DNA of 21,073 nt. Source: Chloroflexota bacterium. GTDB taxonomy: Bacteria > Chloroflexota > Limnocylindria > Limnocylindrales > CSP1-4. The notes below the pieces were generated by a model. The model saw only the letters and a program-made list of their open reading frames with translations. It was not told the origin of the DNA and ran no database searches. The stretch spans positions 1-21,073 of the forward strand of contig JAJYMP010000739.1 in the NCBI GenBank assembly GCA_021786915.1. Direction: 5' to 3'. Of the stretch, positions 225-18,955 are shown in pieces. The translations under genes were made by a program, and so were the position numbers. The stretch's first letter is position 1. The number at the start of each line of letters is the position of its first letter.

Positions 225-1715
225 CTACTGCGCCGCCGGCAGCCCGAAGGCCCACAGGCTGCCGTCGAGCGAGCCGACGAACAGCATGCCCTCCGCGGAC
301 GACGGCGCGCTGTACGTCTCCGGGCCGGTGTGGGCCGTGAACAGCACGGACCCGTCAGCGGCGCTCATCACGACCAGGTCTGGCCCGATCCCGCCCACCA
401 CCATGCCATGGACCCACGTCAGGGCCGGCATGACGGCGTGCTCGAACGGCCGCTCCCAGGTGACCGCACCGTTCGCCGGGTCGATCGCCTGCACGAAGCC
501 CGTCCTGGCCTGGCCGGCGATGATCGCCTTGCCGCCGCCCATGAAGATGCGTCCCTCGGCGAATGCCGGGGTCGAGACGGAGCCCTCGCCGCAGTCCGGG
601 CAGCCGCCGCCGATGGCGATCCGCTGCATCCATACCGGACCCGCGTCGAGCTGGCCGCGGTCGAAGGCGTAGAACAGCCCGTTCTTGTTGGCGGCGCCGA
701 CGAGCTGACGACCGGAGGCATCGGTGAACAGGGACGGCGTGGTGCCCCAGTCCCCGTCCAGGATGGACTGCGAGGGGGGCGTCTGCCAGCTGGACTTGAC
801 CTTGAGCGTCGTCGCGTCGAGGGCGACGATCGACTGGGCCAGCGGCTGCGACGTGGGCTGGGAATAGTTGCCGGTAGTGACGTAGACGGTCTGCGTGGCG
901 GCGTCGAGCGCGGGCGTCTGCCATATCCCGCCCCCAGTCTGGCCTCGCGGCACCGCGTCGAAGTGCGCCGTGACGGCGTGCGTCGCGAGGTCGACGCGCA
1001 GCAGCTGGCCCTGCACCAGCGGCTCGTCGCAGTTGGAGGCCACGCCGATGTAAGCCGATCCCTGCCAGATCAGCGGGCTCGACCAGTTGTACAGGCCGCC
1101 CTTGGGCGAGTTGTCGCCCACCTTGATCTTCCAGCGCACCGCCCCGGTGGCCGCGTCGAGCGCGTACCAGTTGGAATCGCCCCCGCCCACGTACACGACG
1201 CCGTCTTCCACGGTGGCCGACGAGGTGACGCCCAGGGTGTTCGGGTCGCAGGCCTTGGTGGTGGTCAGACCCAGGAAGGTCTTCCAGCGCACGACGCCGA
1301 GGGCGAGGTCGATCGCGTACTCGTACCCGTCCCAGGCGCCGACGTACGCGACGCCGCCGACGACGATGGGCTGGGCAGCGATCGGGCCGCCGAGGGTGAC
1401 GTGCATGCGCGGGACCAGCGTGCCCACGTTGCCGGGGCTCAGCGTGGTGTCGGTGCTGACGCCGTTGCGTGCGGGGCTGCCGAGGTACGTGGGCCACTCC
1501 GCCGACGCGGCGCCTGCGAGCGCTGTCGGGGCGGGGTCAGTGGGGAGCGCGCTCTGCCCGGCGCTCGCGGCGGGGGTGATTGTCGCCGTGGCCTGCAACC
1601 CGTTGCAGCCAGCTGTGGCGAGGATGACCACCACCAGCAGCGCAGGTCGAAGGCGCCTGGCGGGCCAGGGACGCCTGCGGGTGGGACTGGTGGCGGTCAG
1701 GGCAGGCTGGCTCAA
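225..1715 (-). CDS. PQQ-like beta-propeller repeat lipoprotein
   Basis: A 496-residue exported protein. The N-terminus has an Arg-rich n-region (residues 13-23), a hydrophobic core (ALLVVVILA) and a lipobox-like TAGC with Cys37, so membrane anchoring by lipidation is expected. After a low-complexity Ala/Pro/Thr spacer, the propeller starts at about residue 74 (WPTYLGSPARNG). Several PQQ/BamB-type blades follow the pattern 'GVVYVGGGDSNWYALDAATG' with variations up to the C-terminal GMLFVGSLDGSLWAFGL. Such blades form a closed beta-propeller. Binding of PQQ itself is not shown: no catalytic residues of quinoprotein dehydrogenases are evident, and many family members are scaffold or sensor proteins. 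Several Cys residues (for example GGGCPDCGEGS) could form disulfides. The start is a TTG with only a weak upstream purine stretch; it is chosen because it gives a complete signal peptide. The downstream neighbour (1854-2978) is on the same strand 138 bp upstream and is also secreted. Confidence 0.85.
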   Translation of the reverse strand: MSQPALTATSPTRRRPWPARRLRPALLVVVILATAGCNGLQATATITPAASAGQSALPTDPAPTALAGAASAEWPTYLGSPARNGVSTDTTLSPGNVGTLVPRMHVTLGGPIAAQPIVVGGVAYVGAWDGYEYAIDLALGVVRWKTFLGLTTTKACDPNTLGVTSSATVEDGVVYVGGGDSNWYALDAATGAVRWKIKVGDNSPKGGLYNWSSPLIWQGSAYIGVASNCDEPLVQGQLLRVDLATHAVTAHFDAVPRGQTGGGIWQTPALDAATQTVYVTTGNYSQPTSQPLAQSIVALDATTLKVKSSWQTPPSQSILDGDWGTTPSLFTDASGRQLVGAANKNGLFYAFDRGQLDAGPVWMQRIAIGGGCPDCGEGSVSTPAFAEGRIFMGGGKAIIAGQARTGFVQAIDPANGAVTWERPFEHAVMPALTWVHGMVVGGIGPDLVVMSAADGSVLFTAHTGPETYSAPSSAEGMLFVGSLDGSLWAFGLPAAQ

Positions 1716-1849
1716 GGCTGGGGCGCTCCGGCTGGACGGGACGGTGGTGTCCGCCGCGGAAGATACGCCAAATCGCTTTCGGCCTCCCCCGGCGACCCTC
1801 CGCCGCCCCCTCGCGGTCCGGGGCAGGGCGCTCCACGCCGAGCCGAGGC

Positions 1850-1870
1850 CGGGTCAGCTCCCGTAGCGGC
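1850..1870 (+). repeat. 21-bp exact direct repeat, copy 1
   Basis: The 21 bases from 1850 to 1870 (beginning cgggtcagctcccg and ending tagcggc) are identical to 7532-7552. In this copy the minus-strand glycosidase-like gene uses the sequence for its last codons and stop (YGS then TGA). Flanking bases differ on both sides. Confidence 0.75.
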
Positions 1871-2978
1871 GCACGGCATCGCGGATGCGGGTGTAGTCGG
1901 CCGGGTTCGCGTTCATGTTGACCTGGTCCATGAAGCTCCAGGCGAACAGCCCGGCCGCGGTGGCCTGACGCAGGTACGCGTCGGTCAGCATCGCGCTCGT
2001 GTCGGCGTCGAAGGTGGCCTGCGAGCCGTTGTCGGGCTTGTAGTGGGCGAGCATGACCGGGCCCCAGGCGTGGAGCGCTCGGGTCATCGCCAGCACGTCG
2101 GCCACGTTGGTGTCGCTCTCCATCGCCTGGAAGCTCTGGAAGTCGGACGCGCCCATGACGTCGGCGAAGTGCTGGAGCATCGAGCGGCCGCCGCCCGTGG
2201 ACGGGTCGTCCCATCGCTCCTGCCAGCCGCCCCAGCCCAGGGACACCTTCGCGTTGGGGGCGTAGCGGTGGAAGGTGACCTCCGCCCGGGTGTAGGCGTC
2301 CTTGAGCGCAGACCAGTACGCCTGGTCCGGGAGCCAGGCGCCCTGGTGGCAGGCGTAGGTCTGGAACTCGGTGAACATCGTCACGTACAGCGGCGGCCCC
2401 TTGGCGGTGCCGGCCCAGATCTTCGCCAGGGCTGCCATGTCGGACTGGAACAGGGCCGTCAGCGGGTACGGGCGGCCGCAGGCCGGGCCGTACTTGGTCT
2501 GGGTGGTTGTGGTGGCGTTGCCGCTCGCGTACACGATCAGGTGGAGCGCTCGCCCGACGGCGTACTGGGCCGGGATGAGGCTCGACGACCATCCGGTCAT
2601 CCATGACAGGTCGCCGTGGCCGTTGAACCAGCTCGAGAGGATCCGGACTGGGGCGACCTTGACGAGCGGGCTCGCCGCCGCCGTCCCCGCCTCGCTCCCA
2701 AGGCCGAACAGGAGCTTGGGGATCCCGGCCGGCGCGGAGGAGCCGGGCACGAAGCTGTGGGACGAGGTCTCCGAGGGCGATCCCAGGAGGGTCGCGCCCG
2801 GCGAGCCGCTGCCCAGGATGACCGCGGACCCGGCGGCGGCGCCGGTCGGCCCGGCCGGCGTGCCCGTGTTCGCGAGCGCCGGGGCGAGCAGGACGACCGC
2901 GACAAGCACGAGGGCCAGCACCCCCACGGCAGCGACACGGGGCCGCAGCGTCCGCGGAGGCCGGTCGGGCTGGTTCAT
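1854..2978 (-). CDS. secreted probable TIM-barrel glycoside hydrolase-like protein
   Basis: A 374-residue protein from the ATG at 2978. This start gives a clean signal peptide: a basic n-region (residues 1-14, RPPRTLRPR), a hydrophobic core (VAAVGVLALVLVAVVLLAPA) and a likely cleavage after ALA near residue 36. The frame stays open to a GTG at 3029, but the extra 17 residues look non-coding. A Gly/Ser/Ala-rich linker runs to about residue 90. The remainder alternates beta-like strands and helices in the manner of a TIM barrel: VRILSSWFNGHGD, LHLIVYASG, PPLYVTMFTEF, AKVSLGWGGWQ, VMLAHYKPDNG, GLFAWSFMDQV. Strand-end acidic residues Glu184 (MFTEFQ) and Glu267 (QAMESD) are candidates for a catalytic pair, by analogy with retaining glycosidases. 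I cannot assign a GH family, and the substrate is unknown. Location beside polysaccharide genes is consistent with a glycan role. Confidence 0.75.
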   Translation of the reverse strand: MNQPDRPPRTLRPRVAAVGVLALVLVAVVLLAPALANTGTPAGPTGAAAGSAVILGSGSPGATLLGSPSETSSHSFVPGSSAPAGIPKLLFGLGSEAGTAAASPLVKVAPVRILSSWFNGHGDLSWMTGWSSSLIPAQYAVGRALHLIVYASGNATTTTQTKYGPACGRPYPLTALFQSDMAALAKIWAGTAKGPPLYVTMFTEFQTYACHQGAWLPDQAYWSALKDAYTRAEVTFHRYAPNAKVSLGWGGWQERWDDPSTGGGRSMLQHFADVMGASDFQSFQAMESDTNVADVLAMTRALHAWGPVMLAHYKPDNGSQATFDADTSAMLTDAYLRQATAAGLFAWSFMDQVNMNANPADYTRIRDAVRRYGS

Positions 2979-3385
2979 CAGGGTGCCGGGGATGGTGCCG
3001 GCGCACGCCGCCTGCTGGCGCTGCAACACTTCTGCAATTCGGGCCGGGACTCGGCAGTTAGGTCCATGGCGCCCAGAAGAATAGCCTCAATGGCCCGTGA
3101 CTCTGTTATGGGGCGCGACTCCGAGGGGCACATATGATCCGCAGACGACGGTGCGGTCCGAGACCTGCAGAGGGCCCGCCTTCGACTTCCCACGACGGAC
3201 GGTGGACTTGGGTACTGACGCGTGATGGGGCCATCTGACCACCGAGCGGCGTCGTCGATCGACCGAACGTGTCAGCGCCAGAGTCGGCCTGCCACGCCCG
3301 CGCGGCGCGTCGCTCGAGAGCGCGCGATCGCCGCGCGGGGTGGTCTTCTCGATCGGCCGCTGTCCGGCTCGACCGGTAGCGCCAC
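2979..3385. other. divergent intergenic region, candidate promoters
   Basis: About 400 bp without a convincing gene, lying between a minus-strand secreted protein and the plus-strand glycosyltransferase operon. It is noticeably less GC-rich than the coding DNA around 3060-3140. A perfect-looking -10 hexamer TATGAT lies on the plus strand at 3133-3138, but no good -35 box is found at the usual spacing and it is 250 bp from the GT2 start. On the minus strand TATTCT (3083-3078) could serve the gene that begins at 2978, also without a clear -35. The Arg-rich frames across this region have no protein-like composition. Transcription in both directions from here is inferred from gene orientation. 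Confidence 0.35.
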
Positions 3386-4744
3386 ATGACCTCCAGCGTC
3401 GAGGTCTTCCTCGCGGTGGCGGCGGTGCTGGTGCTCCTCCAGGCCCTGTTCTCGCTCTACCTGATGCTGTTCTCGTGGGAGCACCCGAACCGGCTCGAGG
3501 CGAGCCGGGGACCGCGCGCCTATCACCGCTCGGACTTGTCGTTCACGGTCCTCGTTCCGGCCCGGGAGGAGGAGGCCGTCATCTTCGACACCGTCCTGCG
3601 GATCTGGAACGGGCGCTTCCCGCTCCGGGACGACCCCTCGGAGACTCCTGAGGGTTACCGGACGCGCAAGGAGCGGCAGGTCGAGATCGTGGTCATCTGC
3701 CACGAGGACGACCTGGCGACCATCGCCGAGGCCAACCGCGCCGCGGCCGCGGCCGGCACGAGCTCGGTACGGGTGGTGACGTTCTCCGGCACGCAGGTCA
3801 ACAAGCCGCGCGCACTGAACGTCGGGCTCGCGGTCACCTCGAATGACGTGGTTGCCGTGTTCGACGCCGAGGACGATGTCGATGCAGAGCTGCTCAACGC
3901 CGTGGCGACGGTGATGGAGCGCGAGGACGTCGGCATCGTCCAGGCGGGCGTCCAGCTCATGAACTTCCGCGACCACTGGTTCTCGCTCCACAACTGCGTC
4001 GAGTACTACTTCTGGTTCAAGAGCCGGCTCCACTTCCACGCCCGGCAGGGAATGATCCCGCTCGGCGGCAACACGGTGTTCGTGCGCCGCCACCTGCTCG
4101 AGCGGGTCGGCGGCTGGAACCCGGCCGCGCTCACCGAGGACGCCGACATCGGCGTGCGCCTGAGCGTCCTGCGGGAGCCGATCACGGTGGTCTACGACGG
4201 CGACCGGGTGACGCGGGAGGAGACCCCGTCCGACACGAGCGCGCTCATCCGCCAGCGGACCCGATGGCACCAGGGCTTCCTCCAGGTGCTCGTGCGGCGC
4301 GACTGGATGCGGCTGCCGGGCCCGCGCCAGCGGCTCCTCGCCGCGTACACCTTCAGCTACCCGTTCCTCCAGCTGCCGATCCTGACGCTCTGGCCGCTCG
4401 CCATCGTGCTGGGCGTCGTGTGGCACGTGTCGGTGGTGGTGTCGATGATCACGTTCCTCCCGCTGTACGCGCTCGCGTTCCAGTTCTTCGTGACCCTGAT
4501 CGGCGCCGGGATGTTCACCCGTGAATACGGCATGCGGCTGCCCGTCCGCACCTTCGTGACGCTCGCGCTGACCTTCCTGCCCTACCAGTGGCTCCTGACC
4601 GTGAGCTCTGTCCGAGCGCTGCGACGTGAGCTCGCCGCCCGCTCCGACTGGGAGAAGACCGCACACGTCGGCGCGCACCGCGCCGCGCTGCCCAGACCGG
4701 CGGTCACCGCGCCCATCACCGACAGCGAGCCCTTCGGGACATGA
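3386..4744 (+). CDS. membrane GT2-family processive-type glycosyltransferase
   Basis: A 452-residue family 2 glycosyltransferase of the BcsA/hyaluronan-synthase/N-acetylglucosaminyltransferase type. It should transfer sugars from a nucleotide-sugar in the cytoplasm and may help extrude the chain. An N-terminal helix (residues 5-29) precedes the GT-A domain. That domain shows LSFTVLVPAREEE (51-63), KPRALNVGL (140-148), the DAEDD metal/sugar-nucleotide motif (160-164), TEDADIG (250-256) with the catalytic-base Asp, and QRTRW (290-294), the QxxRW signature of processive enzymes. Three or more helices follow between about 316 and 410. There is no PilZ domain, so c-di-GMP control as in BcsA is not indicated. 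Its stop overlaps the start of the next gene (ATGA at 4741-4744), implying translational coupling. The ATG at 3386 has no obvious strong ribosome site. The sugar product is unknown. Confidence 0.9.
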   Translation: MTSSVEVFLAVAAVLVLLQALFSLYLMLFSWEHPNRLEASRGPRAYHRSDLSFTVLVPAREEEAVIFDTVLRIWNGRFPLRDDPSETPEGYRTRKERQVEIVVICHEDDLATIAEANRAAAAAGTSSVRVVTFSGTQVNKPRALNVGLAVTSNDVVAVFDAEDDVDAELLNAVATVMEREDVGIVQAGVQLMNFRDHWFSLHNCVEYYFWFKSRLHFHARQGMIPLGGNTVFVRRHLLERVGGWNPAALTEDADIGVRLSVLREPITVVYDGDRVTREETPSDTSALIRQRTRWHQGFLQVLVRRDWMRLPGPRQRLLAAYTFSYPFLQLPILTLWPLAIVLGVVWHVSVVVSMITFLPLYALAFQFFVTLIGAGMFTREYGMRLPVRTFVTLALTFLPYQWLLTVSSVRALRRELAARSDWEKTAHVGAHRAALPRPAVTAPITDSEPFGT

Positions 4745-7548
4745 CGACGCCGCTCGGTCCGACGGGGGGCGTGGCGAGCGGGCTCCGCAGCTCAGGGGGT
4801 GTGGCGAGCCGACTGCGATCGACGCTGGGCAGGAGGGGCGTCAGGGAGGCCGTCTGGGTGGCGGCCATCCTGGGCATCGGCGCGCTCGCCCACGCGGTCG
4901 ACATGTTCAACTACCCGTTCTACCAGCAGGACGAGGGGACGTACATCTCGCAGGCGTGGTCGGTGTTCCACCTCGGCCACCTGGCGCCCTACACCTACTG
5001 GTACGACCACCCGCCGGCTGGCTGGATCCAGCTGGGCGCGCTGCTCCAGCTCTTCGGCCAGGTGCTCAACGTCCCGAGCGACATCGAGGCCGGCCGCATC
5101 GTGATGCTGGGCTTCCAGGTGGGCTCGATGGCGCTGCTGTACGCGGTCGCGCGGGGCCTCGGGCGCAGCACCGCTGCCGCCACGGTCGCGGTCCTCGCCT
5201 TCGCCCTCTCGCCGTACGGCCTCGTCTTCCACCGCCGGATCCTGCTCGACAACATCGCGTCGTTCTGGCTGCTGGCCAGCCTCGCCCCGCTGGTCGCCCG
5301 GCGGCTGACGCTGTCCCGCGTCTGGATGAGCGCCCTCATGCTCGGCATCGGCGTCCTGTCCAAGGAGATCCTGATCGTGGCCGTGCCGGCCCTCGCGGTG
5401 CTGGTGGCCGTTCGGGCGGACCGCTCGCAACGGTCTCTCGCGACCCTCGGCTGGCTCGTGCTGGTGCTGAGCATCAGCTCGCTGTGGCTCCTGTTCGCGA
5501 TGCTCAAGGGGGAGCTCCTGCCGCCCGGCGCCCCGCTGTCTGGCAGTGGCGGGCATGTCAGCCTGATCGAGACGCTGCTCGTCCAGGCTGCCCGCGGCCG
5601 CGACGGCGGGATCCTGGAGGCCGGAAGCCACTTCTGGCAGACGGCCACCTGGTGGCTCGGGCAGGACCCGCTGCTCGTGGCGGGCGGCACGGCGGCGTCG
5701 GCGATGGCGGCCCTCTCCATCAGGCGCGCGAGGTCGATGGGCGCGCTCGGGCTGGCGGTGCTCTCGCTGTGGGTCTTCCTCGGCCGAGGCGGAGTCACGC
5801 TCGACTTCTACCTCGTGCCCCTCCTGCCCCTGCTCGCGCTGGAGGTCGCCTGGGCGTTCGACGGCATCCGGGCGCAGGGCCGTCGCCTGCCGGACGCCGC
5901 GGTCTGGCACCGCGCCCTCGACCACCGATTCGCGAGGGCGACCGCGGCCGGCGTCCTGTCGGTCTCGGTGGTCCTGACCGGGACCGGATCGCTCGTCCAC
6001 GCGTCGGATCGCGCCGTGCTGTGGTCGAGCCCCCAGGCGTCCACCCAGCGGGCGGCGATCAGCTGGGTGCGCGCCACGCTGCCCCCGGACTCGACGATGG
6101 TCATCGACATGTTCGCCTGGCCGGACCTGCACGAGCCGACGGTCCCGGCGCCCAGCTTCCCGCGCGCCGAGTACTACTGGAAGGTGGAGGAGGACCCCGC
6201 GATCCGCAGCGCCATCCTCAAGGACGACTGGCGCAACGTGGACTACGTCATGGCCACCCCGGACATGGTGGGCGACGCGTCGCAGCTGCCGTTCGTCCAG
6301 ACGATCCTCGACCACGCCGACGTGATCCGGCGGATCGACCAGGGTGGCTGGCCGGTCCTGATCGAGCGGACCCGCACGCTGCGGCGCCTGCCGGCCACGT
6401 CGGACCAGCTGCTCTCGACCTTGTGGGCGAGCTGGAGAGCGGCGGTGCTGCCGACGGGGAGCGTCGCCTCCGCGGTGGCGACGCCGGACAGTCTGGCCAT
6501 GGCGATGGCGGCCGCCGTCTACATGAACGACCGCGCGACGTACGACGCGCTGTGGGGCCGGGCCAGGGGCCACCTGCTCGGCAGTGATGGCCTCGTCCTG
6601 CCCGGCCACGGAGGTGTCCGGGACCCCGGCGCCGACACCGACCTCGCGGTGGCGCTGCTCCTGGCGGCCAGCCGCTGGGGCGACGCCGTGGCCATGGCGA
6701 ACGGGCGCGCCCTGATCGGCGCCATCTGGTCACGCGAGACGGCGATCGTCGGCGGGGACCGGCTGGTGGTGGCGTCTGCGCCGGCCGCCGGGGCCCAGGC
6801 CACGCAGCCGACCGTCGTGGACGACAGCGCCCTGGCGCCGTACGCCTATCGGATGTTCTCCGTCTTCGACCCCGGCCACCCGTGGCTCAAGGTGGTGGGC
6901 GGGACGTACCACTGGCTCGAGCGGCTCCGGCTCGACCCGGCCGTCGGCGGCCCGGTCGGGGTGGTGCCCCATCTGGTGGTGGTCGACGCCACGGGCGGGG
7001 TCGCTCCGGTCGGCGGGACGCTGGGCGGGTCGCGGTTCGACGCCGCGGCCAGCACGCTCCAGTGGCGGCTGGGCCTGGACATGATCTGGAACGGCGAGGG
7101 CCGGGCGCAGGACGTCCTCGAGTGGCTGGGCGTGCCGCGGCGGACCGTCGAGGCGGGAGGAGCGGCATTCGCGAGCTACAACCTCGATGGCATGGCGACC
7201 GGGCCCGGGCAGGGCCTCATGACGTCATCGACCGTGCTGCCCTCCCTGTTTGCCAGCGGGGGCGTCGACCTCGCCTCGCGGGCGTTCTCCTCGACGGTCC
7301 TCACGCCGGCACTCGCCGCACGTCCCGGCGAGCTCGACGCGACCAGCCTGGGCTGGGCGTGGTTCGCGACCGCGCTGATGGACGGCGGCCTGGCCAACCT
7401 CACGCAGGGCGAAGCGACCATCGACTGGGCGCGGCCGGGGCTGGTCGCCACCGCCGTGGTCGTCCCGGGTCCCCCTCCTGGCCCGGGTTCTGGGCCGGGG
7501 CCAGGTGCTGCCGCCGCGCCGGCGGCCGGAGCGGGTCAGCTCCCGTAG
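4741..7548 (+). CDS. GT39-like membrane glycosyltransferase fused to a GH8-like domain
   Basis: A 935-residue fusion protein. The N-terminal half is a GT-C/GT39 (ArnT/PMT-like) glycosyltransferase using a lipid-linked sugar. Asp64-Glu65 lie in YQQDEGTYIS, the first outer loop, where these enzymes keep their catalytic acid. YDHPPAGW and RRILLDN follow, with about ten hydrophobic helices to about residue 420 and a small alpha/beta domain to about 555. From about 575 to 900 the sequence follows GH8 endoglucanases such as BcsZ along its whole length. MNDRATYDALW matches the NDRAAFD block, GADTDLAVALLLA the DADLW block, ALAPYAYRMF the PSYLxP block, RFDAAAS the SYDAxR block (general base as Asp767), and MTSSTVLPSLF the end. 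The GH8 general acid Glu aligns with Asp583. The tail is Pro/Gly/Ala-rich. A ten-residue N-terminal sequence (9-18) is repeated at 19-28. The ATG overlaps the upstream GT2 stop. The GT-C assignment is firm; the GH8 match was made by eye. Confidence 0.85.
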   Translation: MTTPLGPTGGVASGLRSSGGVASRLRSTLGRRGVREAVWVAAILGIGALAHAVDMFNYPFYQQDEGTYISQAWSVFHLGHLAPYTYWYDHPPAGWIQLGALLQLFGQVLNVPSDIEAGRIVMLGFQVGSMALLYAVARGLGRSTAAATVAVLAFALSPYGLVFHRRILLDNIASFWLLASLAPLVARRLTLSRVWMSALMLGIGVLSKEILIVAVPALAVLVAVRADRSQRSLATLGWLVLVLSISSLWLLFAMLKGELLPPGAPLSGSGGHVSLIETLLVQAARGRDGGILEAGSHFWQTATWWLGQDPLLVAGGTAASAMAALSIRRARSMGALGLAVLSLWVFLGRGGVTLDFYLVPLLPLLALEVAWAFDGIRAQGRRLPDAAVWHRALDHRFARATAAGVLSVSVVLTGTGSLVHASDRAVLWSSPQASTQRAAISWVRATLPPDSTMVIDMFAWPDLHEPTVPAPSFPRAEYYWKVEEDPAIRSAILKDDWRNVDYVMATPDMVGDASQLPFVQTILDHADVIRRIDQGGWPVLIERTRTLRRLPATSDQLLSTLWASWRAAVLPTGSVASAVATPDSLAMAMAAAVYMNDRATYDALWGRARGHLLGSDGLVLPGHGGVRDPGADTDLAVALLLAASRWGDAVAMANGRALIGAIWSRETAIVGGDRLVVASAPAAGAQATQPTVVDDSALAPYAYRMFSVFDPGHPWLKVVGGTYHWLERLRLDPAVGGPVGVVPHLVVVDATGGVAPVGGTLGGSRFDAAASTLQWRLGLDMIWNGEGRAQDVLEWLGVPRRTVEAGGAAFASYNLDGMATGPGQGLMTSSTVLPSLFASGGVDLASRAFSSTVLTPALAARPGELDATSLGWAWFATALMDGGLANLTQGEATIDWARPGLVATAVVVPGPPPGPGSGPGPGAAAAPAAGAGQLP
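4765..4824 (+). repeat. tandem 30-bp (ten-codon) repeat
   Basis: Two adjacent in-frame copies (4765-4794 and 4795-4824) near the start of the GT39/GH8-like gene encode GGVASGLRSS and GGVASRLRST. They lie in the predicted cytoplasmic tail before the first membrane helix. The copies differ at several bases, so the duplication is not very recent. Confidence 0.7.
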
Positions 7549-12196: not shown

Positions 12197-14101
12197 TTGA
12201 CCGACACGCCCGCCCTGATCGACCCTAGCGGACCGGTAGGCATCGGCATGGGCGATGCCGCGCCGACGGCTGAGGCGGCCGTGGCCGTGCTCCCCTCCCC
12301 CGCCGCGCCCCGCCATCGGGGGCGCCGGCTCGTGCTCTTCCTCGCGTCGTTCGTCCTCGGCCTCGCCGCCGTCCTGGCCGTGACCGGCGCCGGGCTCGCT
12401 GCCTGGGATTCGGGCTACGAGGCGCGCGTCCTGCCGGGCGTGCACGTCGGCGGGGTTGACCTCTCGGGCCTCGACCGGAGCGGGGCCGCGGCAGCGCTCC
12501 GGGCGGCGTTCCCCTACGACCAGGGGCAGCTCGTGCTGCGCGCACCGAGCGGCGACATCACGGTGCCGTTCAGCGCCCTCGGCCGCCACGCCGAGGTGGA
12601 CGAGCTGGTCGACGAGGCCCTCGCCTCGGCCCGCGGCGGCGACCTCGCCACGCGCGTGGTGAGCGAGGTGGGCCAGGCGATCCACGGCGTGACGCTCGCG
12701 CCACGCGTCGGCCTCGACCGGCAGGCCCTGGGCGATGCGATCCGGGCGGCGCTCGCGCCGCTGCGCTCGAGCCCCGTCGACGCCACGATCGCGATGACCG
12801 CGAGCGGACCGGTCACGACCGCAGCCCGCGACGGGACCGCGGTGGACCCCGAGCCGGTCATCGCCGCTGCGCTCGCCGCGGTCAGCTCCACGGCCGCGCC
12901 ATCCGTCGTCGTGGTGCCGGTGACCACGACCCCCGTGCCGCCGACCGTCTCCGACACGGCCGTCAGCACGGCGTCCGCCCTCGCCGAGCAGGCCATCGGC
13001 CCGATCACCGTCGCCTTCGGCAAGAAGACGTGGACGATCAAGGAGGCCACCGTCCGCACGTGGGTCGGGTTCGGGACGGCCTCGGACGGCTCGATCCGGC
13101 CCACGGTGGACGCCACGAAGATCCCGGCCTCGCTCAAGGGCGTCGCGAAGACCGTCCTCAAACCCGCCACGTCCGCGGTCTTCCTCCGCGCGAAGGGCGG
13201 CAGGATCGTCGGTGTGGCGGCGTCGTCCGACGGGCGCAGGCTGGACGTGGCGGCCACCTCAAGCCGCATCGCGTCGGCCATCCTCGGGCGCATGTTCGGG
13301 GGCACGGCCACGCCGGTGAAGGTGGCCACGGCCCCGCTGCCTCCCAAGCTCACCACGGAGCAGGCGAAGCTCAAGGCGCCGGTCCTCACCCTCCTCGGCA
13401 CCTGGACCACGTGGTTCCCGATCAACGACCACAACTACTTCGGCGCGAACATCTGGCTCCCGGCCCAGATGATCAACGGCACCGTGGTCGCCCCCGGCGG
13501 CACCTTCGACTGGTGGAACGCGATCGGCGACGTGACCACCGCCCGCGGCTTCGGGCCCGGCGGCGTCATCAAGGGCAACCACACCGACCCGACCGGCGCG
13601 ATGGGCGGCGGGATGTGCTCGAGCTCCACCACGCTGTTCAACGCGGCGCTCCGGGCGGGCCTCCAGATGGGCGCCCGGGGGAACCACCGCTACTACATCA
13701 ACCGTTACCCGCTTGGGCTCGACGCCACGGTCTGGAAGATCGGCAGCGCGGTGCAGGACATGTCGTTCACCAACGACACCGCCCACTCGATCCTGATCCT
13801 GGGCATCAAGACGCGCTCGGGCGGCACCGGCTATGTCACCTACCAGATCTGGGGCATCCCCGACGGCCGGACGGTCTCGCTCTCGGGGCCGATGGTGACC
13901 AACGTCATCCAGGCGACGACCGACACGGTCTACGTGGACACCCTGCCCCACGGCGTCAGGCAGCAGACCGAGTACCCGTCGAACCAGATGGACGTCGCGG
14001 TGAGCCGAGTGGTCCGCGACAAGGGCGGCCACGTCATCCACTACGAGGTCTGGCGCTCCCACTACGTGCTCTGGAACGGGATCATCCAGGTCGGCAAGTA
14101 G
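12197..14101 (+). CDS. VanW family protein with peptidoglycan-binding-like domains
   Basis: A 634-residue membrane-anchored extracytoplasmic protein. A short cytoplasmic tail is followed by one helix (about residues 45-70, LVLFLASFVLGLAAVLAVTGAGLAAW split by a few small residues). Two YoaR/PG_binding_4-like regions follow: VLPGVHVGGVDLSGLDRSGA to about 200, and a second around 265-390 with SSDGRRLDVAATSSRIAS. The VanW domain spans about 410-560, with NGTVVAPGGTFDWWNAIG, GGGMCSSSTTLFNAALRAGL with Cys474, and NRYPLGLDATVW. The tail resembles a G5-like or linker segment (VYVDTLPHGVRQQTEYPSNQ). VanW proteins are wall-associated with unproven biochemistry; despite the name, no vancomycin-resistance operon is present. 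The TTG start at 12197 is the longest option. ATG 12248, preceded by GGTAGG, is an equally good start that keeps the helix. Confidence 0.85.
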   Translation: MTDTPALIDPSGPVGIGMGDAAPTAEAAVAVLPSPAAPRHRGRRLVLFLASFVLGLAAVLAVTGAGLAAWDSGYEARVLPGVHVGGVDLSGLDRSGAAAALRAAFPYDQGQLVLRAPSGDITVPFSALGRHAEVDELVDEALASARGGDLATRVVSEVGQAIHGVTLAPRVGLDRQALGDAIRAALAPLRSSPVDATIAMTASGPVTTAARDGTAVDPEPVIAAALAAVSSTAAPSVVVVPVTTTPVPPTVSDTAVSTASALAEQAIGPITVAFGKKTWTIKEATVRTWVGFGTASDGSIRPTVDATKIPASLKGVAKTVLKPATSAVFLRAKGGRIVGVAASSDGRRLDVAATSSRIASAILGRMFGGTATPVKVATAPLPPKLTTEQAKLKAPVLTLLGTWTTWFPINDHNYFGANIWLPAQMINGTVVAPGGTFDWWNAIGDVTTARGFGPGGVIKGNHTDPTGAMGGGMCSSSTTLFNAALRAGLQMGARGNHRYYINRYPLGLDATVWKIGSAVQDMSFTNDTAHSILILGIKTRSGGTGYVTYQIWGIPDGRTVSLSGPMVTNVIQATTDTVYVDTLPHGVRQQTEYPSNQMDVAVSRVVRDKGGHVIHYEVWRSHYVLWNGIIQVGK

Positions 14102-17133: not shown

Positions 17134-17754
17134 CTAGCGGTCCGCGACTGCCAGCCCGCCGAACCGGTCCGTCCGGAACGCGGAGACGACCGCCTCCGGA
17201 TGGCGCCAGGCGTCCTTGGGCAGGCCCGCCTTGCGCGTGGCGATGTCGAGCATCGCGGTCCGGTCCAGCCCATTCTCCTCGGCGACCTCGGGCAGGAGGA
17301 GCCCCCGCCGGCTTCCCAGCTGGACCACGATCCCGTCGGTGCCCAGGCGCCACGCGAGCGGGTCCGCGAGCGGGACCATCGGCCCGAGCACGGACACGTC
17401 GATCCGAAGCCGGGGCAGCTCCTCGGGGGTCAGGGGCCGGAACCGCGGGTCTGCCCGCGTGGCGCACGCCGCCGCCTCGGCCACGCTGTCGCGCACCGGC
17501 CGCTCGGGGTCGAGCATGCCCATGCAGCCGCGCAGCCCGCCCCCCTCGGTGAGCGTGACGAAGGCCCCGGCGCGGAGGCCCGTCGACGGCAGCGCGCGCA
17601 TCGCGGACTCCAGCGCGGCCGACCCCAGCGCGCGGCTCGCGACGGCCACGGCAATGCGGGCCACCTCGAGAAGCTCCGATCGCGCGGCGTCCGTGACGGC
17701 CACGGGATCCGGCAACCCGCTCGCGCCGCTCCTGCGCCCGAGTTCCGTGTGCAT
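17134..17754 (-). CDS. amrA: AMMECR1-domain protein (AmmeMemoRadiSam system protein A)
   Basis: A 206-residue cytoplasmic AMMECR1-domain protein, close to the family norm. The helix-rich N-terminus (ARSELLEVARIAVAVASRAL) leads to GAFVTLTEGGGLRGCMGML. That holds the near-invariant LRGC(I/M)G motif (74-79, Cys77), the suspected active or binding site. Next come a helix with ADPRFRPLTPEELPRLRIDVSVL, and GTDGIVVQLGSRRGLLLPEVAEENG, both hallmarks of the fold. The molecular activity of AMMECR1 proteins is not established; genomic linkage to Memo and a radical SAM enzyme is the main clue. An overlapping AGGAGGAGG run six bases upstream supports ATG 17754. It is divergent from the amrS-like gene across 136 bp, so the three components probably share a regulatory region. 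Confidence 0.92.
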   Translation of the reverse strand: MHTELGRRSGASGLPDPVAVTDAARSELLEVARIAVAVASRALGSAALESAMRALPSTGLRAGAFVTLTEGGGLRGCMGMLDPERPVRDSVAEAAACATRADPRFRPLTPEELPRLRIDVSVLGPMVPLADPLAWRLGTDGIVVQLGSRRGLLLPEVAEENGLDRTAMLDIATRKAGLPKDAWRHPEAVVSAFRTDRFGGLAVADR

Positions 17755-17760
17755 GGCGCT

Positions 17761-17769
17761 CCTCCTCCT
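17761..17769 (-). promoter_or_regulatory. strong ribosome binding site for the amrA-like gene
   Basis: On the minus strand this reads AGGAGGAGG, ending six bases before ATG 17754. It fixes the start and suggests efficient translation. Confidence 0.75.
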
Positions 17770-17890
17770 ACCTCGCGCCGCGATGGTGCGCGCCGGCGGG
17801 CGTCAAAGCGCAGACCCGGATGGCACGAAACCGGCCGGCCGGCCCTTCCGGCGTCGACGGTCTGGCCCCAAGATCCGGTGCGAGGTCTCC

Positions 17891-18955
17891 ATGCGCCAGC
17901 CGATCGTCCGCTCCGCCCTCCTCGGCCCCGTCCCGGGCGTGCTCGCCGTGCCCCAGGCGGCCGGTGCCGTCCGGTGCAACGTCTGCGCGCACCGCTGCCT
18001 GGTGCGGCCCGGCCGGCACGGGATCTGCGGCGTCCGCGAGAACCATGACGGCCGGCTGTTCGCGATGTCGTACGGCAATGTGGTCGCGGCAGCCCTCGAC
18101 CCCGTCGAGAAGAAGCCGCTGTTCCATGTCGCACCGGGTTCGACCGCCTGGTCCATTGCGATGCCGGGCTGCCCGTTCCACTGCGTGTTCTGCCAGAACT
18201 GGGATGTTGCGCAGGGCCCTCGTCTCGGTCTCGTCGTCGCGAGCCGCGAGTGCTCGCCCGAGGCCGTGGTGCGGGAGGCGATGCGGCGCGGCGCCGGCGC
18301 GATCGCCTACACCTACGTCGAGCCGACGGTCTTCCTGGAGTACGCGCTCGACACCGGCCACCTGGCCCGGACCGCCGGCCTGCTCAACCTGTGGATCACG
18401 GACGGCTACGCCACCCCCGAGGCGGTCGAGCTGCTGACGCGCTTCGTGGACGCCGCCAACGTTGACCTCAAGTCGTTCGATGACCGCTTCTACCGACGGC
18501 TCTGCGGGGCGCGGCTGGCGCCGGTGCTCGAGTCGATCGAGGCGATGCGCGCGGCCGGCATCTGGGTCGAGATCACGACGCTGGTCATCCCTGGGCACAA
18601 CGACAGCGACGCCGAGCTCGCGGCGATCGCCGACTGGATCGGCGAGCACCTCGGTCCCGAGACGCCCTGGCACGTGAGCCGCTTCCACCCGGACTTCCAC
18701 CTGCTCGACGTCCCGGCCACCCCCACCGAGACCCTCCTCCGCGCCCGGCGTCTCGGCCGCGAAGCCGGCCTCGCGCACGTGTACCTCGGCAACGCGCCCG
18801 AGCTCCGGGGCGAGGACACCGAGTGCGCCGGGTGCGGTGCCGTGATCGTCGAGCGGCGCGGGTACGGGGCGCGGTCGCGCCTCACCCCCGATGGCGCCTG
18901 CCCGGAGTGCGGCCGGACGATGGCGGGCGTTCGCCTCGCGATGGTGCCGGCGTGA
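17891..18955 (+). CDS. amrS: radical SAM enzyme of the AmmeMemoRadiSam system
   Basis: A 354-residue radical SAM protein. The [4Fe-4S] motif is CPFHCVFC (Cys94, Cys98, Cys101), preceded by GSTAWSIAMPG and followed by QNWDVAQ, as in the PflA-like/AmrS group. The SAM-binding barrel continues with AYTYVEPTVFLEYALDT, NLWITDGYATPEAVELL, ANVDLKSFDDRFYRRLCGA, and WVEITTLVIPGHNDSDAEL, ending with PWHVSRFHPDFHLLD. Two extra Cys clusters flank it: Cys29/32/36/46 at the N-terminus (CNVCAHRC...GICG) and CAGC/CPEC (312/315/337/340) at the C-terminus, probably zinc-ribbon or auxiliary cluster sites. Family members always accompany Memo, often AMMECR1; the reaction is unknown. The ATG at 17891 has GAGG about seven bases upstream. 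Its TGA overlaps the GTG of the Memo gene. Confidence 0.93.
   Translation: MRQPIVRSALLGPVPGVLAVPQAAGAVRCNVCAHRCLVRPGRHGICGVRENHDGRLFAMSYGNVVAAALDPVEKKPLFHVAPGSTAWSIAMPGCPFHCVFCQNWDVAQGPRLGLVVASRECSPEAVVREAMRRGAGAIAYTYVEPTVFLEYALDTGHLARTAGLLNLWITDGYATPEAVELLTRFVDAANVDLKSFDDRFYRRLCGARLAPVLESIEAMRAAGIWVEITTLVIPGHNDSDAELAAIADWIGEHLGPETPWHVSRFHPDFHLLDVPATPTETLLRARRLGREAGLAHVYLGNAPELRGEDTECAGCGAVIVERRGYGARSRLTPDGACPECGRTMAGVRLAMVPA

Follow-up and report, generated by a model that had tools for sequence, protein, structure and literature searches.

A GT39-like glycosyltransferase fused to a GH8 domain that has lost its active site, in a putative bacterial surface-polysaccharide module

We analysed a stretch of 21,073 nucleotides from a Chloroflexota bacterium (contig JAJYMP010000739.1 of assembly GCA_021786915.1), here called the window. 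It holds two overlapping genes on the plus strand, i.e., one for a BcsA-like membrane glycosyltransferase of family GT2 and one whose product joins a GT39-like (GT-C) membrane glycosyltransferase to a GH8 domain. An earlier note on this DNA had proposed such a fusion, with a BcsZ-like hydrolase as its second half and a link to polysaccharide synthesis. The features discussed below are the following.

3386..4744, plus strand: BcsA-like membrane GT2, 452 amino acids (aa)
4741..7548, plus strand: GT39-like (GT-C) and GH8 fusion protein, 935 aa; the start is ATG at 4741 or GTG at 4858
4741..6015, plus strand: residues 1-425, the membrane part of the GT-C enzyme, with some 11 membrane helices (model, fold match, loop charge)
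4930..4935, plus strand: Asp64-Glu65, GT-C type acidic motif in the first outside loop (near-invariant column pair)
6016..6375, plus strand: residues 426-545, C-terminal subdomain of the GT-C part on the outer side, modelled as helices and strands
6391..7413, plus strand: GH8 (alpha/alpha)6 domain with lost active site, residues 551-891 (profile, fold, residue columns)
6487..6489, plus strand: Asp583, which takes the place of the GH8 proton donor Glu (CelA Glu95) in the alignment
6628..6630, plus strand: Gly630, in the CelA Asp152 column (alignment)
6820..6822, plus strand: Asp694, clade-specific, found in 11/11 members of the window's clade versus Asn in 20/20 compared intact relatives
7039..7041, plus strand: Asp767, clade-specific (11/11), two residues ahead of the lost base
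7045..7047, plus strand: Ala769, aligned with the catalytic base Asp (CelA Asp278)
7465..7545, plus strand: disordered Pro/Gly/Ala tail, residues 909-935 (pLDDT < 50)

That one chain combines a GH8 domain with a GT-C enzyme is confirmed by the GH8 profile, the structure model and the fold match. Full-length relatives on many separate contigs, among them L083 (genome G319) and L001 (OHK40), rule out a misassembly of two halves. The membrane part shows the GT-C fold and carries the acidic pair in its first outside loop, which is conserved in at least 90% of 45 aligned rows (the window protein and 44 relatives taken as fused). The structure model has about 11 membrane helices when helix 93-109 is counted as a surface helix, as in ArnT. 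Since this number is odd, the C-terminal parts share the side of the Asp64-Glu65 loop. The fraction of Lys and Arg is 0.20 in loops assigned inside versus 0.072 in outside loops, the sides being read off the structure model and not from an independent predictor; exceptions are a pair of short loops on the outer side, at about 164-168 and 208, with values of 0.18 and 0.14 over the family. Model and charge pattern thus support a predicted location of the GH8 half on the outer side of the membrane, a point that the earlier note had raised. The Pfam PMT profile stays below its cut-off in the window protein and exceeds it in the relatives P0051, P0040, P0018 and P0102. GH8 rows take up the head of the VIA-align list obtained with the fusion, such that missing rows of other GT-C proteins are uninformative.

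As a fold family, the second half is a GH8 domain by both its sequence profile and its (alpha/alpha)6 fold. To place the active-site columns of the family we used P0097, an intact relative that is alignable to both CelA and BcsZ. In CelA, Asp278 acts as the base, and Trp132, Trp205 and Tyr215 have roles in the active site as well. According to PMC13363691, CelA Glu95 is the proton donor, while Asp152 and a Tyr function in recognition and in coordinating water. The window domain has Asp583 for the proton donor, in a column that varies between D, E, A, T and G, and the family alignment puts Gly630 and Ala769 at the positions of Asp152 and Asp278, although phmmer pairs Asp767 instead of Ala769 with the CelA base. 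Substitutions also affect the columns of W621, W681 and Y697. Out of eight active-site columns, none is intact in the window and 0-2 are in twelve clade members, whereas all 8 are intact in 20/20 intact relatives (alignment A1 has 23 intact rows, from which P0040, P0091 and P0097 were left out); alignment error could have shifted individual columns in the rows that diverge most. With regard to the NCBIfam BcsZ equivalog, the window protein scores 21.6 bits for a cut-off of 299, compared to 150.6 for the intact fusion L001. Judged by its residues, the GH8 domain of the window is not expected to act as a hydrolase through the known GH8 mechanism. The BcsZ-like trimming proposed earlier is not supported for this copy, since all eight columns tested are substituted, and an active BcsZ-like enzyme in the window is ruled out by the same residues.

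This loss is not confined to the window. We scored catalysis by whether or not the columns of donor Glu, Asp152 and base Asp are all kept, and on a tree of the GT39 parts the catalytic residues are lost in 35/77 fused proteins. Parsimony yields 15 changes of state, at least 8 of which are forced by well-supported branches. The window's set comprises 11 proteins, all of them lost (support 100), with the intact P0015 as sister. The tree excludes the fused rows P0003, L046_2641 and L092_2080, which have short GT39 pieces; L093 was set aside in the scoring of GH8 states as a copy of L081. Natural changes in the donor and base columns include Glu to Gln in L025 (L025:9983-12715) and Asp to Asn in L039 (L039:9923-12592). 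Fusions are duplicated in tandem in L014, L015 and L017, and in L017 a worn copy is followed by an intact one. As to a possible single origin of the fusion, the fused label takes 12 changes on the tree, with 6 of them forced by starred branches, where the class without GH8 includes loci with short flanks. One fused gene, from a Methylophilaceae metagenome contig filed under Pseudomonadota (L010), groups with a Saccharimonadia row, possibly due to a binning error or a transfer.

Genome G011 carries worn fused copies beside separate intact GH8 genes at both of its loci (L081 and L082). We considered the rule that a worn fused copy is always offset by an intact GH8 elsewhere; it holds for L081, L082 and L017 (via the tandem intact fusion) and is broken by G104, G240 and G385, whose genomes have no GH8 besides the worn fused copy. 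Among separate GH8 genes only 1/29 has lost its residues, versus many of the fused ones, but this contrast is weak evidence because 25/29 of the separate genes come from close Actinomycetota relatives. A separate GH8 frame of Subtercola vilae (L056:12803-14536) also contains a sortase domain (PF04203, E 5.4e-20), which hints at attachment to the cell wall.

The upstream GT2 carries the TED and QxxRW motifs, which we take to mark a processive enzyme of the BcsA type: E251, D252 and QRTRW (290-294) are invariant in the 24 rows of alignment A2, i.e., proteins picked from those loci, out of 80, that have an unfused GT2 frame. It is not a BcsA cellulose synthase proper, given 33.7 of the 699.1 bits needed for NCBIfam CelA and no PilZ match. 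Its best VIA-align match is PcManGT; matches to BcsA and hyaluronan synthase were also found. The loci are the best 80 of 464 relatives in a genome scan and were chosen by similarity to the GT39 part or the fusion, not by GT2. In 73/80 of them, the GT39 domain has a GT2 relative at most 1.2 kb upstream, which is on the same strand in 70; this bears out the coupling to GT2 that had been suggested from the window; the GT2 is divergent in the Streptomyces loci L052, L053 and L062. The seven loci without upstream GT2 include L014 and L017, which are second tandem copies in a GT2-led array, and L016, where a partial GT2 meets the contig edge.

GH8 is fused in 22 of the 80 loci, separate within 8 kb in 29, and not seen in 29. 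Where the flanks extend for 5 kb or more on each side (47 loci), we find a polyprenyl-phosphate-sugar synthase of the type of PDB entry 5mlz within 8 kb in 36, GtrA in 12 and neither in 10. As background, six genomes of 1.2-10.3 Mb have 1-6 synthase matches each, with the module's own counted. Among twelve hand-picked genomes, 9 have GH8; G001, G003, G004, G005, G006 and G010 have exactly one, which in all six is that of the module. In G003 (1.2 Mb) both the single GH8 and the single synthase match lie inside the module. The order of the parts varies, i.e., synthase, GtrA-GT2, GT39-GH8 in L001; synthase-GT2, GT39-GH8, GtrA in L019; and GT2, GT39, a DUF4397 protein, GH8, synthase in Curtobacterium (L047). 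So do the fusions: the synthase is joined to GT2 in L019 (5mlz, E 2.6e-33), and GtrA to GT2 in L001 and to GT39 in P0118. In the GT39 relative P0087, a PslG-like hydrolase domain replaces GH8 at residues ~560-789 (4zn2, E 1.8e-17); no PslG-like frames were found near GT39 in other loci. An Anaerolineae frame (L034:7168-9924) combines an FHA domain with a synthase-like domain (PF00535) and the BcsA-like GT2. Within the window, the GT-C part is the only one of synthase, GtrA and GT-C that we found.

The protein search yielded 345 relatives among 5.8 billion proteins (7996 best-seeded candidates scored), and among the best 120 of these at least 44 aligned as fused, mostly at 30-63% identity. In a sample of 400 Chloroflexota genomes, 38 have a match at E 1e-40 or better, and 9 matches in 7 genomes cover both halves (two candidates scored per genome). 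For the phylum of the Patescibacteria genome of L019, matches occur in 23/379 genomes and cover both halves in 8, where two matches end near residue 705. Plasmid records gave no match at E 1e-20. The module is found in Chloroflexota, Actinomycetota and small-genome Patescibacteria. The architecture, flagged earlier as unusual, is real yet not peculiar to one genome: it belongs to a family, and in Microbacteriaceae its parts are separate neighbouring genes.

We favour, with a probability of roughly 55%, a cell-surface polysaccharide module in which the GT39 enzyme decorates the GT2 product while the window's GH8 scaffold holds the chain uncut; the link to polysaccharide synthesis drawn from the window alone is supported. 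Given its fold and motifs, the BcsA-like GT2 would build a chain at the cytoplasmic face and export it. The polyprenyl-phosphate-sugar synthase and a GtrA flippase, parts seen in relatives, would provide a lipid-linked sugar at the outer face; in the window's genome both would need to sit outside the window. The GT39-like half would then move this sugar onto the emerging chain, i.e., the membrane GT-C half probably glycosylates a polysaccharide that is secreted. Where relatives have kept the site intact, the residues of the outside GH8 half suggest that it most likely acts like BcsZ, as a hydrolase that cuts the chain or sets it free. Since the window's clade is without catalytic residues, its GH8 domain would most likely be a non-cutting, chain-binding scaffold that presents the nascent glycan to the GT39 site. 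We prefer chain binding because of the conserved positions of the domain (see below), the worn copies that are the sole GH8 of their genomes, and the role beyond catalysis reported for Salmonella BcsZ in PMC5070118. More tentatively, and with the odds rather against it, a tethered polysaccharide hydrolase may repeatedly have become a non-cutting guide that feeds the nascent glycan to the outside site of a transferase, within a module of synthase plus decoration.

Among the alternatives, plain extracellular glycosylation survives best, although we consider it unlikely. Here, GT2 and GT39 would modify a protein or cell-wall polymer without making a new polysaccharide, and GH8 would merely dock the acceptor. 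A GT-A enzyme, a GtrA flippase and a GT-C enzyme form a known arrangement (PMC13390465), relatives of the module encode such a synthase and GtrA, and PcManGT leads the GT2 matches. On the other hand, the QRTRW motif and the BcsA and hyaluronan synthase matches of the GT2 favour a polymer, as do the attached GH8 or PslG-like domains. Moreover, the BcsA-like GT2 is not needed for the donor, because relatives have a 5mlz-type synthase in addition.

It is more doubtful still that the GH8 half is a decaying remnant, out of use and drifting. The ratio of GH8 to GT39 divergence is indeed raised in the window's clade (1.26 in 55 pairs versus 0.97 in 190 pairs of intact relatives), and some worn copies elsewhere show stops or frame breaks, e.g., an in-frame stop in that of G240. 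Against this, all 11 clade members of the tree keep the full length, 92 GH8 positions are identical in at least 10/11 of them, the domain model is confident, and worn fused copies recur on many branches.

Least probable is a relocated catalysis, in which Asp694 and Asp767 take over from the old pair to cleave or transfer a different glycan: they are the only clade-specific acids gained in the GH8 domain by the rule used, both within former active-site motifs, one is paired by phmmer with the CelA base, and the related GH126 has its key Asp shifted by one residue (PMC13363691), but the tryptophan and tyrosine columns are substituted too, the proton-donor column is variable, and both acids may be drift because three such acids arose in the GT39 part by the same rule.

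Beyond the module, the window holds two frames upstream of GT2 (228-3086), one unidentified and the other a PQQ/BamB-type beta-propeller gene on the minus strand, a VanW protein with two PG_binding_4 stretches (12197-14101), and an AMMECR1 gene (minus) adjoining a radical SAM gene (plus; 17137-18955).

The loss of catalysis on several branches with the GH8 scaffold kept amounts to a natural experiment on the role of GH8 in bacterial cellulose synthesis, a role called unknown or poorly understood in PMC5070118. The module also offers a testable surface-polysaccharide system for the poorly known Chloroflexota and Patescibacteria, and its unfused version is present in cultured Microbacteriaceae, e.g., Curtobacterium and Frigoribacterium. 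A literature search, with most subscription journals outside it, turned up no paper on a GT39-GH8 fusion or on the module, in line with the earlier note, to which no such system was known.

Compared to BcsZ of bacterial cellulose operons, the window's GH8 is tethered to a GT-C enzyme and lacks the catalytic residues, and the window frames scanned with Pfam gave no PilZ, BcsB or BcsC match. With the GT-C enzymes of the PMT/ArnT type the fusion has the fold, the topology and the acidic pair of the first outside loop in common but adds a GH8 domain; our GT39-like label could correspond to CAZy GT39 or GT83. The exopolysaccharide hydrolases PslG and PssZ (GH126) belong to families other than GH8 and are not known to be fused to GT-C enzymes. 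In the Acidisarcina bcs locus, GH8 is replaced by GH5, a hydrolase swap beside a GT2 synthase that resembles GH8 versus the PslG-like domain here, but the accessible part of PMC9693552 describes no GT-C fusion. The Actinoplanes gsf cluster was dropped as a studied member, since its GT-C-like member differs by the account of PMC13390465 itself. The GT-A/GtrA/GT-C glycosylation described in that paper uses the three kinds of parts that occur in many relatives of the module, which adds to them the BcsA-like GT2 and, in 51/80 loci, GH8, with parts fused variously. What appears new is that two systems usually considered separately, i.e., synthase-dependent exopolysaccharide export and lipid-sugar-dependent glycosylation (synthase, GtrA, GT-C), are merged into one module in varied fusions, with a tethered GH8 that was repeatedly disarmed.
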